Shown here: positions 6,698 to 36,180 of the stretch, piece after piece
Numbering within the stretch: the stretch's first letter is position 1
How the letters are laid out: each line of letters opens with the position of its first letter
Assembly (NCBI RefSeq): GCF_028292965.1
Contig: NZ_JAQGLG010000073.1
Coordinates: forward strand, 1-42,310
Direction: 5' to 3'
Length of the DNA: 42,310 nucleotides
Source: Sphingomonas bacterium
GTDB taxonomy: Bacteria; Pseudomonadota; Alphaproteobacteria; Sphingomonadales; Sphingomonadaceae
Notes under the pieces: model-generated
Told to the model about the DNA's origin: nothing
Seen by the model: only the letters and a program-made list of their open reading frames with translations
Databases searched by the model: none
Translations under genes and position numbers: made by a program

Positions 6698-6849
6698 CAC
6701 TGTGCTCCTCACAGGAACGGCGACTATTGTCGTTGTACCGGAACACCCTTTGCGATGAATAAACCAATGGCACCCGATTTGGTTCAACGCCCATCCTTGC
6801 CCCAAACGCTTGCCGACCATGCTGCGGTGCGATAGGGGCGCCGACGAGA

Positions 6850-7035
6850 CGGGTTCCCGGAGACGGGATCCAAGGGAAAGCGGTGCGTGGGGGTAACCTC
6901 TCCGCAAAGCCGCTGCTGCCCCCGCAACTGTAACCGGATAGCCGGCGCCTCATTCAAGCCACTGGGCCTCAAGCCTGGGAAGGCGAGGTGCATCAGGCCG
7001 TGACCCGGGAGCCAGGAAACCTGCCTGTCCCACGT
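6850..7035 (+). ncRNA. Cobalamin (adenosylcobalamin-type) riboswitch
   Basis: This is the leader of the btuB operon. It carries the class's conserved blocks in order: GGTTCCCGGAGACGGGA, AGGGAA, GGTG, the B12-box-like core GCTGCCCCCGCAACTGTAA (about 6914–6933), GCCACTGG (6958–6965), GGGAAGGC, and AGCCAGGAAACCTGCC (7010–7025). About 135 bases separate it from the btuB ATG, room for an expression platform. By analogy, cobalamin binding should repress the downstream B12 uptake genes. Between the small membrane gene (6697) and the riboswitch I see no further feature. Confidence 0.93.
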
Positions 7036-7170
7036 CGATCCACTGCGCGGGCGGGGTGCACCGGGCGGACGAGGGGATTCCTTCGAGCGAGCGACATAAC
7101 CGGACCGTATGGCCGGGTGTCGCGCTGTTGCGTCATTCGGCGATCGGTCCCTCGCACAGGGACGTTACCA

Positions 7171-9075
7171 ATGACCAACCGCTATCGATCCGCCCTCTTC
7201 GCCGCCGTCGCGTTCGTCGCCGGCCCGGCCTTCGCCCAGACCACCCCGCCCGCCGATCAGCCACCGGCCGAGGCCACCGGCGACATCGTCATCGCCGACC
7301 AGCGCACCGAACCCGACATCATCGTCGCCGCCGGCGTGCCGCAATATGCGCGCGAGGTCGGCCAGGCGGTCACCGTCATCACTCGCGCGACGATCGAGCA
7401 GCGCCAGGCCGTGTCGATCGCCGACCTGATCGCCACCACGCCGGGCGTGACCATGTCGCGCAACGGGCCGATCGGCGGCTTCACCGCGATCCGCATCCGC
7501 GGTGCCGAGGGCGAGCAGACGCTGACCATCATCGACGGCGTGCGCGTCAACGATCCGTCTTCGCCGGGCGGTGGCTTCGACTTCGCCAATCTGCTGGCCG
7601 GCTCGGTCGATCGCGTCGAGATCCTGCGCGGCCCCAATTCGGTGCCATGGGGCAGCCAGGCGCTGGGCGGCGTGGTCAACATCGTCACCGCCGCGCCGAG
7701 CTACGGCGTGCAGGGTCGTGGCAGCATCGAATATGGCGCGCATGACAGCGTGTTCGCCAATGCCGCCATCTCGGGCGCCAACGACCATTTCTCCGGCGCG
7801 CTGACCGCGGGTTATCTCCACACCGACGGCATCTCGGTCGCCGCCAACGGCACCGAGCCCGACGGCTATCGCCAGTACGGCGCGACCGGCCGGGTCGGCA
7901 TCAACATCACCCAGGATATCGGGCTCGATCTGCGCGCTTATTATGCGCACAGCCGCGCGGCGCTCGATGGCTTCCCGCCGCCCAATTACACGCTGGCCGA
8001 CGATCCCGAATATTCGACCACGCAGGAACTCTACGGCTATGCCGGCGTGCACGCCAATTTCCTCGATGGCCGCTTCAAGAACCGTGTCGCCTTCACCATC
8101 GCCGACATCAACCGCGACAATTTCGACCCGACCTTCGGCACCGCGCCGAGCTTCATCGGTCGCGGCCGCAGCCAGCGTTACGAATATCAGGGCGACTTCC
8201 AACTGATCGATCAGGTCCGCCTCGTCGCCGGTGCCGAGCATGAGGATACGCGCTTCAACGACGGATCGACCTTCGTCTCGACCGGCGTGACCAGCTTCTA
8301 CGGCGAAGCGATCGTCAAGCCCGTGCGCCAGGTCACCGTGACCGGTGGTATCCGCCACGATCAGCACAAGGCCTATGGCAGCCACACGACCTTCGGCGCC
8401 GACGCGGTGCTGGCGCTCGACAGCGGCACGACGATCCGCGCCAGCTATGGCGAGGGCTTCAAGGCGCCGACGCTCTATCAGCTCTACGCGCCCTTCTACG
8501 GCTTCAAGGATCTGAAGCCCGAAACCGCGCGCAACTATGATGTCGGCGCGTCGCAGAGCTTTCTCGGCGGGAAGGGCAGTGTCGGGGTGACCTATTTCCA
8601 CCGCGACACCACCAATCAGATCGATTTCGATCTCGGACTATTCGCTTACCGCAACATCGCCCGCACCCGCGCTAATGGTGTCGAGTTCGAGCTGACGTTG
8701 CGGCCAATCAACGAGCTGACCTTCACCGCCAACTACAGCTATATCCATGCCGAGAATCTCAGTGCGGGCTTTGTGGGCAAGGATCTCGCGCGGCGCCCAC
8801 GTCAAACGGTCAACGTCTCGCTCGACTACAAGCTGCCCTTCGGCTTGTCCGTTGGTGGCACGATCAGCCATGTCGGCGACAGCTTCGACAATGCCGGTAA
8901 CACCACCCGGCTCGACGGTTACGTCTTGGCCGGCGTACGGGCGGAAATGCCCATCGGCGATTATTTCGCCGTCTATGGCCGGGTCGATAACCTGTTCGAC
9001 GAACGCTACCAGACCGTCTCCGGCTATGGCACGCTCGGCCGCGCAGCCTATGGCGGCGTGCGCGTGAAGCTGTGA
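7171..9075 (+). CDS. btuB: TonB-dependent cobalamin receptor (BtuB-like)
   Basis: A 634-aa outer-membrane receptor. It has a signal peptide (about residues 1–22, PAFAQ cleavage-like site), a TonB-box-like IVIADQ stretch in the mature N-terminus, a plug domain (QAVTVITRATIEQR ... VEILRGPNSVPWG ... GGVVNIVT) and a 22-strand-type barrel ending in KL. It should bind and import vitamin B12 with energy from TonB–ExbBD. The assignment to B12 rests on the cobalamin riboswitch directly upstream and the btuFCD-like genes downstream. ATG 7171 has AGGGA about 9 bases upstream. It leads the operon; btuF begins 4 bases after its stop. Confidence 0.92.
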   Translation: MTNRYRSALFAAVAFVAGPAFAQTTPPADQPPAEATGDIVIADQRTEPDIIVAAGVPQYAREVGQAVTVITRATIEQRQAVSIADLIATTPGVTMSRNGPIGGFTAIRIRGAEGEQTLTIIDGVRVNDPSSPGGGFDFANLLAGSVDRVEILRGPNSVPWGSQALGGVVNIVTAAPSYGVQGRGSIEYGAHDSVFANAAISGANDHFSGALTAGYLHTDGISVAANGTEPDGYRQYGATGRVGINITQDIGLDLRAYYAHSRAALDGFPPPNYTLADDPEYSTTQELYGYAGVHANFLDGRFKNRVAFTIADINRDNFDPTFGTAPSFIGRGRSQRYEYQGDFQLIDQVRLVAGAEHEDTRFNDGSTFVSTGVTSFYGEAIVKPVRQVTVTGGIRHDQHKAYGSHTTFGADAVLALDSGTTIRASYGEGFKAPTLYQLYAPFYGFKDLKPETARNYDVGASQSFLGGKGSVGVTYFHRDTTNQIDFDLGLFAYRNIARTRANGVEFELTLRPINELTFTANYSYIHAENLSAGFVGKDLARRPRQTVNVSLDYKLPFGLSVGGTISHVGDSFDNAGNTTRLDGYVLAGVRAEMPIGDYFAVYGRVDNLFDERYQTVSGYGTLGRAAYGGVRVKL

Positions 9076-9079
9076 ACCG

Positions 9080-10096
9080 ATGAAACCGACGATCCCGCTG
9101 CTCGCCTTGACGCTCGCCGGCTGCACCCAGCCGGCGGCGCAGGGCGGTGGCGGGATCGTTTCGACGAACCCGTGCGCCGATGCGATGCTGGTCGAACTGG
9201 TGCCGGCCAGCCGCATCGCGGCGATCAGCCATTATTCTGTCCAGGCCGATGCCAGCTCGATGCCGCTGTCGGTCGCCCGCCGCTTCGCCACCACCGCCGG
9301 CACCGCCGAGGAGGTGATCGGCCTGCATCCCGACCTTGTGGTGACGTCGAGCTTCACCCCGCCGGCGACGCTGGCGGCGTATCGGCGCGTCGGGCTCAAG
9401 GTGCTGACGCTCGATTCCCCCACCACCATCGCGGCGAGCGAAGCACAGATACGCACGCTGGCGGCTGCGCTTGGCGCGCACGGGCAGGGTGAGGCGATGG
9501 TGGCGCGGCTCGAAAAGGCTGCGAGCGAAGCGAGGCCTTGTCTCCCTCTCCCTGTGGGAGAGGGAAGGGGCCCATCGCGAAGCGATGGGAAGGGTGAGGG
9601 CAGGGCCATGACCAGCGCCACGAACTTCCTCGACCCTCACCCTCCCGCCGCTTCGCGGCTCCTTCCCGAATCGGGTCAGCCATTCCCCCGGAATGGCTTA
9701 AACAGCACGGGGTGCTGTTTACCCGATGCGCCCAAAGGGAGAGGGACATGCGCGCAACCGTCCGCCCTTCTGTTCATCGCCGGCGATCTCGCCAACGGCA
9801 CTGGCACGCTGCTCGACGAACTCCTCACCCGCGCCGGTTTCCGCAACGCCGCCGCCGATTACGGCCTGCACTTCACCGGTGGCCTCCCGATCGAAACCAT
9901 TGCCGCGCACCCGCCGCGCGTCATCTTCGCGCCCGACGCCTCGCGCACCGCGATCCTGCGCACCCGCGTCCTCGCCCGCACCGGCGCGATCGTCACCGAG
10001 GCCAATTTCCCCCGCCGCCTGGTCAATTGCGGCGGCCCGGCGATCGTCCCCGCACTCCAGCGCCTGAGCGAAGTCCGCCGGAGCCTCGGCTCATGA
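9080..10096 (+). CDS. btuF: Cobalamin-binding periplasmic lipoprotein (BtuF-like) with an in-frame repeat insertion
   Basis: A 338-aa substrate-binding protein of the class III (helical backbone) type. It has a lipoprotein signal (lipobox LAGC, Cys15), an N-lobe with VSTNPCADAMLVEL and GLHPDLVV, and a C-lobe with LLFIAGDLANGTGTLLDELL and ETIAAHPPRVIFAP. It should capture B12 and deliver it to BtuCD. The family is normally about 260–275 aa. Here about 68 extra codons (roughly residues 155–222) are encoded by a 204-bp palindromic repeat at 9543–9746 that keeps the frame open. The extra segment is Gly/Pro/Arg-rich and lies in the loop before the C-lobe, where it may be tolerated. The stop overlaps btuC (ATGA). 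Confidence 0.88.
   Translation: MKPTIPLLALTLAGCTQPAAQGGGGIVSTNPCADAMLVELVPASRIAAISHYSVQADASSMPLSVARRFATTAGTAEEVIGLHPDLVVTSSFTPPATLAAYRRVGLKVLTLDSPTTIAASEAQIRTLAAALGAHGQGEAMVARLEKAASEARPCLPLPVGEGRGPSRSDGKGEGRAMTSATNFLDPHPPAASRLLPESGQPFPRNGLNSTGCCLPDAPKGRGTCAQPSALLFIAGDLANGTGTLLDELLTRAGFRNAAADYGLHFTGGLPIETIAAHPPRVIFAPDASRTAILRTRVLARTGAIVTEANFPRRLVNCGGPAIVPALQRLSEVRRSLGS
9543..9746. repeat. Family A palindromic repeat inserted inside btuF
   Basis: The outer arms TCCCTCTCCCT (9543–9553) and AGGGAGAGGGA (9736–9746) are perfectly complementary. Inside are hairpins CCCATCGC/GCGATGGG (9571–9578/9582–9589) and GCCGC/GCGGC (9647–9659). The same element, without the nested part, lies at 24873–25018. 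Length 204 bp is a multiple of three. Confidence 0.88.
9668..9733. repeat. Nested cruciform-like segment within the btuF repeat
   Basis: ATCGGGT (9670–9676) pairs with ACCCGAT (9721–9727). Within it are two complete hairpins: AGCCATTCC/GGAATGGCT (9678–9686/9690–9698) and AAACAGCAC/GTGCTGTTT (9700–9708/9712–9720), each with a 3-base loop. This block is absent from the family A copy at 24873–25018, so it looks like a second insertion. Confidence 0.75.
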
Positions 10097-11058
10097 CTCG
10101 CCGCCTCGCTCTGCTCGCCGCGCTGGTCGTCGCCGCCTTCCTGATGTCGCTGATCGCCGGCAAATACTGGATCCCGCCCGCCATCTGGTTCTCGCCCGAT
10201 CCGCGCTGGGCGATCGTCACCGAGTTGCGTCTGCCGCGCGCCATCCTCGGGCTGACGCTCGGCGCCGGCCTTGGCCTGTCGGGCGCGGTCCTCCAGGGTT
10301 ACCTCCGCAACCCGCTCGCCGATCCGGCGGTGGTCGGCGTCTCGTCGAGCGCCGCGCTCGGCGCGGTCGCGGCGATCGTGCTTGGCATCGGCGGCGGCAC
10401 GCTCGGCATCTTCGCCTGCGCGATGATCGCCGCATCCGGCTCGATGGCGTTGCTCGCCGCGCTCACCTGGCGCGCGCAGAGCAGCGTGCAGTTCATCCTC
10501 GCCGGCACCGTGCTCGCCAGCCTGTCGGGCGCGCTCACCGCCTTCCTCATCTCGCTCGCCCCCAACCCCTATGCCGTAGCCGAGGCGATCGACTGGCTGA
10601 TGGGCGCGCTGACCGATCGCAGCATCGACGATGTCCGCCTTGCGGTGCCGTTCATCGTCGCCGGTTCGGTCCTGCTGTTGCTCACCGGCCGCGCGCTTGA
10701 CGCGCTCACCCTGGGCGAGGCGGCGGCGCGTTCGCTCGGCGTGCGGCTCGGCCGCGTCCAGGCGCTGATCGTGCTCGGCACCGGCCTGACCATCGGCGCC
10801 AGCGTCGCAGTGACAGGCGTGGTGGGTTTCGTCGGCCTCGTCGTGCCGCATCTGCTGCGCCCGATCTTCGGCCACCGTCCCTCGGCACTGCTGCTGCCCA
10901 GCGCGCTCGGTGGCGCGGCGCTGGTGCTGGTCGCCGACAGCCTGTGCCGCCTCGCGCCCGGCGCCGGCGAGGTCCGCCTCGGCGTGGCGATGGCGCTGAT
11001 CGGCGCACCCTTCTTCCTCGTGCTGCTGCTGCGCGGCGGGGGACGCTCATGGAACTGA
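10093..11058 (+). CDS. btuC: Cobalamin ABC transporter permease (BtuC/FecCD family)
   Basis: A 321-aa, very hydrophobic protein of the FecCD/BtuC permease family with about ten membrane helices. Family blocks: LRLPRAILGLTLGAGLGLSGAVLQGYLRNPLADPAVVGVSS near residues 40–85, and GVVGFVGLVVPHLLRP, the cytoplasmic coupling region, about residue 240. Two copies should form the inner-membrane channel through which BtuF-bound cobalamin passes. ATG 10093 overlaps the btuF stop (ATGA), and its own end overlaps btuD by 10 bases, so translation of btuF, btuC and btuD is probably coupled. Confidence 0.92.
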   Translation: MTRRLALLAALVVAAFLMSLIAGKYWIPPAIWFSPDPRWAIVTELRLPRAILGLTLGAGLGLSGAVLQGYLRNPLADPAVVGVSSSAALGAVAAIVLGIGGGTLGIFACAMIAASGSMALLAALTWRAQSSVQFILAGTVLASLSGALTAFLISLAPNPYAVAEAIDWLMGALTDRSIDDVRLAVPFIVAGSVLLLLTGRALDALTLGEAAARSLGVRLGRVQALIVLGTGLTIGASVAVTGVVGFVGLVVPHLLRPIFGHRPSALLLPSALGGAALVLVADSLCRLAPGAGEVRLGVAMALIGAPFFLVLLLRGGGRSWN

Positions 11059-11833: not shown

Positions 11834-11936
11834 CCACCCCGGCGCAGGCCGGGGCCCAGTTGGGGAACATCGATGGCGCGCGGCGCACGTCGTTACTTTG
11901 ACCTCCCCAACTGGGCACCGGCTTCCGCCGGGGTGG
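11834..11936. repeat. Family B palindromic repeat
   Basis: 33-base arms at 11834–11866 and 11904–11936 are complementary except at three positions. They include CCACCCCGG and CCGGGGTGG ends and CCCAGTTGGGGA / TCCCCAACTGGG. It lies in the convergent gap between btuD and the oxidoreductase gene, so it may also act as a transcript-end hairpin. A related copy is at 39338–39439. Confidence 0.85.
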
Positions 11937-16079: not shown

Positions 16080-16090
16080 TCCTTCTTAAT

Positions 16091-16221
16091 TCCTCCCCGG
16101 AACGGGGAGGGGGACCATGCTAAGCATGGTGGTGGGGGAGTGCCAAAAGCGCAGCGTCCGCGGCCCGCCCCCTCCACCACGCCGCTACGCGTCGCGGTCC
16201 CCCTCCCCGTGCCGGGGAGGT
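16091..16221. repeat. Family E palindromic repeat downstream of mmsA
   Basis: 26-base arms at 16091–16116 and 16196–16221 match as an inverted repeat except at two positions. Each arm contains its own small hairpin (CCTCCCCGG/CCGGGGAGG type). A second inner pair, GGTGGTGGGGGAG with CCCCCTCCACCAC, continues the fold. It occupies the first third of the 395-bp gap between mmsA and the hydroxylase gene. Confidence 0.82.
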
Positions 16222-16386
16222 ATGGTTCTGGAGAGTTCGTCATTGACCCTCGCCATCGTCCCCTCGGCTTCAACGAAGGAAGAGACGGCGGACCCATGCG
16301 AGCCTGATTCAATTCCCGGCCGAAGCGCCCATGGATAACCCCATGCGCCCGCTCGTCTCACCCACCTCTCGCTCCCGGCAAAAACT

Positions 16387-18438: not shown

Positions 18439-18499
18439 GCCCCGCTTATGGCGCGGGCGGGGCAGGGCGTCCATTGGAACGGGGCGCCATTACTTCTTC

Positions 18500-18585
18500 G
18501 TCATGCCGGACTTGTTCCGGCATCCACTCATCCACAAGCGCCAGGGTGTGAGGCGCGGTGGACCCCGGAACAAGTCCGGGGTGAC
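18500..18585. repeat. Family D palindromic repeat
   Basis: 28-base arms at 18500–18527 (contains CCGGACTTGTTCCGG) and 18558–18585 (contains CCGGAACAAGTCCGG) form an inverted repeat with four mismatches. The mismatches are compensated inside each arm's own hairpin. It lies between the AraC-type gene and the small lipoprotein gene. I saw one copy only in this window. Confidence 0.8.
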
Positions 18586-18594
18586 GGAAGCGGT

Positions 18595-22893: not shown

Positions 22894-22907
22894 CGCCTAC
22901 ACCCACC

Positions 22908-22984
22908 GTGCTCCTGCGAAAGCAGGAGCCCAGGGCCACAAGCGCCGCGCCCCGAACCCTGGGCTCCTGCTTTCGCAGGAGCAC
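22908..22984. repeat. Family C cruciform repeat
   Basis: Perfect 28-base arms at 22908–22935 and 22957–22984, beginning GTGCTCCTGCGAAAGCAGG and ending in its complement. Each arm is itself a hairpin (CTCCTGC/GCAGGAG), so either a long hairpin or a double hairpin can form. It lies between phaC and the hydrolase gene within a co-directional gene series. A second copy is at 36061–36137. Confidence 0.9.
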
Positions 22985-23010
22985 AATGAACTTTGCACTG
23001 AGGCTCGAAC

Positions 23011-24867: not shown

Positions 24868-24872
24868 CCTGC

Positions 24873-25018
24873 TCCCTCTCCCCTTGTGGGAGAGGGAAGG
24901 GGCCCATCGCGTAGCGATGGGAAGGGCGAGGGGGAGTTGCGGACGGGTCGCTCGGGGTAGTCCCCCTCACCCTTCCGCCGCTTCGCGGCTCCCTCCCTCT
25001 CCCACAAGGGGAGAGGGA
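24873..25018. repeat. Family A palindromic repeat between enoyl-CoA hydratase gene and mmsB
   Basis: Outer arms TCCCTCTCCCC (24873–24883) and GGGGAGAGGGA (25008–25018) are perfectly complementary. The interior CCCATCGC/GCGATGGG hairpin and the GCCGC/GCGGC hairpin match the copy in btuF almost base for base. It lies within an operon, just upstream of the mmsB ribosome-binding site. Confidence 0.88.
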
Positions 25019-34775: not shown

Positions 34776-34860
34776 TAATTCGGGGACATAATACTAAATA
34801 GCGTGCACGGGTGACCTGTCACATGGCTGCGCAGCTATTTAGTATTATGTCCCCGAATTA
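34776..34860. repeat. Family F element: perfect 27-bp terminal inverted repeats
   Basis: Arms 34776–34802 and 34834–34860 are perfectly complementary and AT-rich at the inner end (they contain CGGGGACATAATACTAAATA). The 31-base centre holds a small palindrome GTGAC–CT–GTCAC (34811–34822). It lies in the convergent gap between phaR and the protease-like gene. The size and shape are those of a miniature element; I recall similar CGGGGACA ends beside Y1-type REP-associated transposases, but no transposase is present here. Confidence 0.85.
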
Positions 34861-36033: not shown

Positions 36034-36060
36034 CGGCGTGGTCGATCGGCTGGCCAAGCC

Positions 36061-36137
36061 GTGTTCCTGCGAAAGCAGGAACCCAGGGCCGCGAGTGCCC
36101 CGCCTGTGATCCTGGGCTCCTGCTTTCGCAGGAGCAC
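36061..36137. repeat. Family C cruciform repeat, second copy
   Basis: 27-base arms at 36061–36087 and 36111–36137 with two mismatches between arms. Each arm forms its own hairpin (TTCCTGC/GCAGGAA and CTCCTGC/GCAGGAG). It is the same family as 22908–22984. It lies between cpaF and the protease-like gene, both on the minus strand. Confidence 0.9.
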
Positions 36138-36180
36138 ATTTGATAGGGCGTGCGTTACCGGCACGGCGGCAATCCGCCGG

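Follow-up and report, generated by a model that had tools for sequence, protein, structure and literature searches.

Rickettsia and Wolbachia provide the best-known cases of palindromic repeats that have become part of coding sequence (PMC3767692, PMC2229807). In Rickettsia genes they have been described as RPEs (PMC2229807, PMC10969869, PMC3767692, PMC2635572), and WPE-like inserts that keep reading frames have also been reported (PMC4224334). The Gmk protein with an RPE insert is active with a changed substrate affinity, and its insert is perhaps neutral or slightly harmful (PMC2229807). Whether repeated insertion at the same locus reflects hotspots or a common origin was left open for Rickettsia, as far as the accessible text of PMC3767692 goes. 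Another class, the REPs, is reported inside genes of many bacteria; in S. alaskensis and E. 'lithoralis', the genes concerned encode tRNA synthetase and tRNA pseudouridine synthase B (PMC3733652). The general phenomenon of palindromes in genes is thus already known in sphingomonads, and the first-pass annotation of the DNA analysed here, to which no description in this group was known, has to be corrected on this point. We take S. alaskensis and E. litoralis to be Sphingopyxis and Erythrobacter, respectively. In the accessible text of PMC3733652 we found neither a btuF case nor a genus-wide count of occupied sites, and the open-licence literature yielded no report on btuF, on glyS site occupancy or on the repeat family described below in Sphingomonas. 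The novelty here lies in this class of long elements and in the finding that palindromes unrelated to one another have filled the same linkers more than once.

The window, i.e., the whole analysed stretch of 42,310 nucleotides from a Sphingomonas genome, carries a cobalamin riboswitch at 6834–7044 on the plus strand (Rfam RF00174, 100.6 bits, E 3.7e-24), followed in the 3' direction on the same strand by btuB-, btuF-, btuC- and btuD-type genes, which make up a B12-type operon. The btuB-type gene for a TonB-dependent vitamin B12 receptor lies at 7171–9075 (TIGR01779, 6.3e-81; the profile scan covered 7180–9075, and the start at 7171 was taken from the ORF). The btuC-type ABC permease gene at 10093–11058 (NF003001 BtuC, 1.1e-60) overlaps the btuF stop with its start at 10093, and the btuD-type ABC ATPase gene at 11049–11819 matches TIGR03873 best (3.8e-72) and the BtuD model NF002981 less well (5.2e-38). 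The matches of these three neighbours of btuF are all below the curated cut-offs. The btuF gene itself (9080–10096, plus strand) encodes a 338-aa substrate-binding protein matching Pfam PF01497 Peripla_BP_2 (4.4e-18, residues 26–152). In a Foldseek search with its predicted fold, heme binders came first, and the BtuF structures of Vibrio cholerae (4.6e-9) and Escherichia coli (1.2e-8) ranked lower. For this reason, the assignment of B12 as the ligand rests on context, that is, on the riboswitch and the btuB- and btuC-type neighbours. No second BtuF copy that might act as a backup was recognised among the matches listed in the genome, a draft of 270 contigs (94% complete, 6.5% contamination); the two BtuF matches counted there were taken as the two lobes of one gene.

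The first-pass annotation had noted a 204-bp palindromic repeat at 9543–9746, in frame inside btuF and adding about 68 residues. Both arms are present, TCCCTCTCCCT at 9543–9553 and AGGGAGAGGGA at 9736–9746, the 204 bp amount to 68 codons, and the frame stays open, with neither stop nor frameshift, across all 338 codons, palindrome included. From repeat matches and folding, we delimit the inserted compound palindromic element at 9541–9748 on the plus strand and refer to its repeat family as family A. That its length is a multiple of three holds for 9543–9746 but depends on the chosen ends: the BLAST-delimited spans of four copies inside genes are 208, 135, 143 and 144 bp, and flanking bases complete the frame. 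The similarity to an intergenic element at 24873–25018 was also borne out, as positions 9536–9600 match 24868–24932 at 88% and positions 9634–9667 match 24964–24997 at 94%. The left half of the element (9543–9603) consists of an outer hairpin, TCCCTCTCCCTGTGGGAGAGGGA, followed by a CCCATCGCGAAGCGATGGG hairpin and GGGTGAGGGCAGGG. The inner part of the right half, CCCTCACCCTCCCGCCGCTTCGCGGCTCCTTCCC, occupies 9634–9667, and at 9669–9735 the right arm contains a nested second palindrome, ATCGGGT...ACCCGAT, which folds with two inner hairpins. Because of this nested palindrome, the btuF copy is ∼60 bp longer than the copy at 24.9 kb (208 vs. 147 bp as delimited). The compound right arm also occurs in two other genomes, G040 (L091) and G017 (L092), with 86–88% identity over 111–113 nt, and a related nested palindrome is found in another copy in the same genome (L088:2120–2185); hence, this is an existing subtype of the element. 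The btuF insert probably arrived as a single unit. The RNA fold of 9512–9780 has a predicted energy of −146 kcal/mol, a value without a shuffle control for the btuF copy.

Because repeats are easily misassembled and this genome is a draft, a repeat copy could in principle have been joined into btuF by an assembly error. The frame, however, is exactly kept; no second full compound copy was present among the matches listed in the genome (40 of 70 candidates scored), which included just a related one, L088; and analogous inserts exist in the single-contig genomes G047 (in btuF) and G033 (in glyS). We therefore regard such an error as extremely improbable.

With the btuF region as a query, 108 matches were listed in the genome and grouped by hand into about 40 places. 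Family A comprises 45 stretches there; full copies are mostly 120–150 bp long, the btuF copy having 208 bp. The common architecture is an outer hairpin, a GC-rich inner hairpin and a spacer, followed by a rough mirror image. The full copy at 24873–25018, our reference, is intergenic, as the coding test described below shows no coding frame extending into it, and has terminal inverted repeats with 32-nt arms that are 94% complementary. Family A ends in CCCTCTCCC/GGGAGAGGG. In 21 aligned full copies inspected by eye, an adjoining CGTC or GTAG tag was absent, and no target-site duplication was seen in their flanks. Rfam gave no match to the btuF element at gathering thresholds. A family-A peptide search matched 132 of 295 genomes of the genus; it used the PSPLVGEGRG frame only, and so its matches cannot indicate a frame preference. 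As for a possible mover, Y1/RAYT-type transposase genes are present in three of the four genomes checked, including the one with the window, and no transposase related to family A was identified among them. The family-A arm motifs were absent from five of the six loci examined, with a single one in the sixth, giving no support to a Y1/RAYT enzyme as the family-A mover.

The window contains other repeats. A 27-nt inverted repeat, TAATTCGGGGACATAATACTAAATAGC, whose two perfectly matching arms are separated by 31 nt, lies at 34776–34860. Its start recurs in nearly identical form at three places around a Y1 transposase gene in another part of the genome (L326), which suggests that the repeat is a non-autonomous element mobilised by this enzyme. 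Further palindromic repeats of several kinds lie at 11834–11936, 16089–16223, 18499–18586, 22906–22985 and 36059–36138; the one at 18499 is CGTC-tagged, and the one at 11834 is of the kind present inside btuF of Sphingomonas sp. AR_OL41.

To see how family A relates to genes, we applied a coding test, a simple codon score with no frame chosen beforehand, which can miss genes, to the 45 stretches from this genome and 25 from G033, with partial pieces as short as 29 and 22 bp, respectively, included. Four of the 70 stretches lay inside genes, two in the genome with the window (btuF and thiD) and two in G033, both in glyS. All four were in frame and open, and none of the 70 stretches was judged to separate coding halves that lie in different frames. 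In extragenic copies of at least 100 bp, 89 of 174 and 40 of 90 frames were open, and the lengths fell into all three modulo-3 classes. A random insertion would thus be both in frame and open in about one case of six, and four of four would occur by chance about 6 times in 10,000, a figure calculated post hoc. Purifying selection on insertions would produce just such an in-frame, open pattern. The thiD copy (L066:378–512, contig G000:C60) lies in a gene with a TIGR00097 match above the cut-off (8.9e-76, in two stretches) and is read in a frame different from that of btuF. A single fixed element frame is thereby ruled out: the PSPLVGEGRG frame is read in btuF and in the observed glyS and ileS copies, but thiD uses the LSLWEREG frame. 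One more copy in this genome (L065:2049–2182, contig G000:C40), scored as in frame but with a stop, supplies the last residues and the stop codon of a gene, presumably for an AllA-like protein judging by eye.

We then compared the btuF insertion site across orthologues. Among the best 80 of 147 confirmed btuF genes, 77 could be parsed (three were left unparsed), and in 73 of these the interlobe linker is 13–20 aa long; in the window it has 84 aa. The 68-codon segment is thus absent from most orthologues in this set, and the net gain relative to them is about 68 aa, as the first-pass annotation had estimated. The four remaining linkers, of 36 aa in Sphingomonas sp. AR_OL41, 41 aa in S. psychrolutea, 47 aa in S. 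oligophenolica S5.1 and 49 aa in MAG ANT-58 (together genomes G044, G284, G288 and G177), contain other palindromes. Hence, it is not the case that all orthologues have a similar segment; rather, that point is occupied by different palindromes in a few other species. At the junction, no clean duplicated target was seen in DNA alignments, and the adjacent linker bases also differ.

In the wider search, 185 of 295 genomes had a BtuF match at 1e-30. Among the matches listed, plus 11 split- or weak-looking ones that were followed, in-frame palindromic inserts were found in at least five genomes besides the window, namely G047 and the four named above. In G163, btuF is split by a frameshift (L105, L113), and a palindromic insert was not noticed there. 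Three kinds of insert can be told apart, family A in the window, a CCGTTCGCGCTGAGC-type in G047 and a CCCCGGCGNAGGCCGGGG-type in G044, G284, G288 and G177. Three families, between which we found no common sequence, thus occupy one linker across at least six carrier genomes, window included, adding from 25 to about 68 aa. At least four gains or losses of the insert are required on a 79-row BtuF tree, and three of these are forced by well-supported branches. The closest relative found, AR_OL41, is the sister of the genome studied here and carries a different palindrome, while G047 is the sister of ERG5 (L248), whose linker is without an insert. A common origin of all btuF inserts was rejected, since those of AR_OL41, G047 and the window are different DNA, and ERG5 has none.

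An AlphaFold2 run on the window protein with 40 relatives in the alignment predicts two confident lobes around a disordered insert. The signal region, N-lobe and backbone helix (residues 1–151) are encoded by 9080–9532, and the C-lobe, starting from PSALLFIAG at residue 227, by 9758–10093, both on the plus strand and placed from the model and alignments. In ten-residue blocks, residues 31–150 and 231–338 have pLDDT of 90 or more. The insert (residues about 161–220) is predicted as coil with pLDDT 40–55, values that may partly come from the absence of anything aligning to it. It would lie between the helix at 134–151 and the first C-lobe strand at 228–234. The earlier placement of the site in the loop before the C-lobe, with both lobes intact, thus agrees with the model.

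These data bear on whether btuF has been freshly inactivated, the element being open and in frame by accident and the protein dead. A single open frame is weak evidence against this, since about half of the frames of extragenic copies are open. The N-lobe, compared with ten outgroups, is 0 to 6 residues (of 126) further from them than that of AR_OL41 and never nearer, a hint that it may be changing slightly faster in this BtuF. However, the gene has no stop or frameshift, the protein conforms on both sides of the insert at the columns invariant in 41 sequences, and in its identity to the ten outgroups the C-lobe differs from that of AR_OL41 by no more than 2 residues. In addition, the adjoining transporter genes match their models over nearly the full length, and comparable insertions that leave the frame open occur in at least five other genomes. 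The NG86 dN/dS values relative to AR_OL41, 0.15 for the N-lobe and 0.30 for the C-lobe, are based on 111–127 codons and include divergence that may predate the insertion. Together with the outgroup distances, they fit a constrained btuF, although much of the divergence may be older than the insert. We thus consider recent inactivation improbable. A dispersed compound palindrome inserted in frame into the interlobe linker, giving about 68 probably disordered residues in a protein that still folds and works, is an account in which we have considerable confidence.

Similar cases occur in other genes. Among 30 loci retrieved by family-A peptide matches, there were in-frame copies in glyS (the GlyRS beta subunit) and ileS; six of these loci, and seven of all the glyS and ileS loci used, were named by a family search, the rest by eye. 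The glyS gene of the single-contig genome G033 (L093:2233–4851) has family-A palindromes in frame at two places. Three Sphingomonas-group genomes (L118, L135 and L137) have an in-frame family-A insert in ileS, between FIPMD and LRGIALDAIE.

A match to GlyS was present in 153 of 166 genomes, and we sampled 80 of 150 listed places (5 chosen, 75 random). One of the 80 had no readable frame, four of the other 79 were left unparsed, and 65 of the 79 were used for a tree. At site 1, the 75 parsed genes fall into 56 with a long linker of 61–129 aa and 19 with a short one of 36–54 aa. Strong hairpins (z < −3 from 30–40 dinucleotide shuffles) were found in 50 of the 56 long linkers, one of the 19 short linkers and one of 75 downstream controls. 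Matches to DNA outside glyS were found for 52 of the 56 long linkers, none of the 19 short ones and one of 75 controls, against a background of 134 loci and the window that is enriched in family A, as many of the loci were fetched for containing it. Since six of the 56 are not strong hairpins and four lack an outside match, not every long linker is such an element. Nor is the short class strictly empty, as six of its 19 members have 44–54 aa and one is a strong hairpin. The gene also has a second linker site, which was read as well.

The short state requires 13 changes, of which 10 are forced, on the 65-row glyS tree. Sister genomes, for example G010/G191, G136/G031 and G107/G221, have visibly different inserts, and an insert present in G301 is missing from the corresponding place in its near relative G328. 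In the genome with the window and in AR_OL41, site 1 is short. Single-linkage grouping of the inserts was discarded, as it lumped 50 of the 56 because conserved ends had remained; a stricter grouping gave 12 clusters from the 56 long linkers and is rough, its largest cluster mixing visibly different peptides. The aminoacyl-tRNA synthetase encoded by glyS is expected to be essential, and its inserts must therefore be tolerated. Indirectly, this supports the btuF case better than any other observation.

The same data could be read as a sign of usefulness, with an mRNA hairpin or a protein loop tuning B12 uptake and selection keeping the linker long. Unrelated palindromes do fill the btuF linker in several lineages, and the prevalence of long linkers at glyS site 1 (56 of 75 parsed) could reflect selection for a spacer or hairpin. 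Still, 73 of the 77 BtuFs parsed from the best 80 of 147 do without an insert, the three btuF families have no common sequence that we could find and differ in size from 25 to about 68 aa, and gains and losses are frequent on the trees. Hence, we hold usefulness of the btuF insert to be very improbable. A broader scheme, in which a few slots in conserved Sphingomonas proteins (GlyS sites 1 and 2, an IleS loop and the BtuF linker) time and again lose one palindrome and receive another, unrelated one at a pace exceeding the divergence of species, and slot length is selected as a disordered spacer or mRNA hairpin, is possible, although we are inclined to doubt it. The presence of unrelated palindromes in frame at the same linkers of orthologues does favour hotspots, i.e., tolerant linkers, over a common origin with subsequent divergence.

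The likeness to the coding palindromes of Rickettsia, suggested by the first-pass annotation, extends to several features: family A is dispersed (about 40 places, 45 stretches) and mostly intergenic, lies in frame and free of stops in conserved protein genes (btuF, thiD and, twice, glyS of G033), is absent from most btuF orthologues and in BtuF forms a predicted disordered loop. RPEs and WPEs are likewise palindromes of ∼100–150 bp, both intergenic and in frame in conserved genes (PMC3767692, PMC2229807, PMC4224334). Their inserts are described at solvent-exposed places; that of BtuF, a predicted coil between the lobes, may lie at the surface as well. Different RPE groups have also been reported near the same locus in orthologues (PMC3767692, PMC2229807); in Sphingomonas, clearly different families occur at one site in sister species. 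Further differences are the host and the size of the btuF element, ∼208 bp with a nested palindrome, and the likeness drawn here is one of features. Like GTAG and CGTC REPs, which lie within ORFs and otherwise are mostly intergenic, and of which different ones are found at about the same site in recB of two Xanthomonas species (PMC3733652), the palindromes described here recur at the same places in genes. CGTC REP units, however, have 8–9 bp stems, a CGTC tag and mostly form head-to-head dimers (PMC3733652), whereas family A lacks such a tag and its full copies are mostly 120–150 bp long. Finally, MITEs such as ERIC and the Correia element are short non-autonomous inverted-repeat elements capable of in-frame gene fusion (PMC10969869, PMC2229807); family A shares terminal inverted repeats with them, and a target-site duplication was not seen by eye in 21 full copies.

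The most probable course is that non-autonomous palindromes become scattered over many sites; insertions disrupting a gene would be removed by selection, and in-frame arrivals in flexible interdomain linkers may persist as disordered loops. In btuF, a copy of a mostly intergenic palindrome would have entered the short linker between the lobes and would be translated as about 68 residues projecting from the folded protein. BtuF with the insert would then still work, and the insert may be close to neutral, persisting since a flexible linker was hit. The earlier statement that an intergenic repeat has been turned into coding sequence stands insofar as an open frame runs through the repeat; we read the repeat as tolerated, with no gained function implied. 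Because close relatives in this genus have sites that are short, long or filled in different ways, they offer a natural experiment in how dispersed DNA becomes protein.
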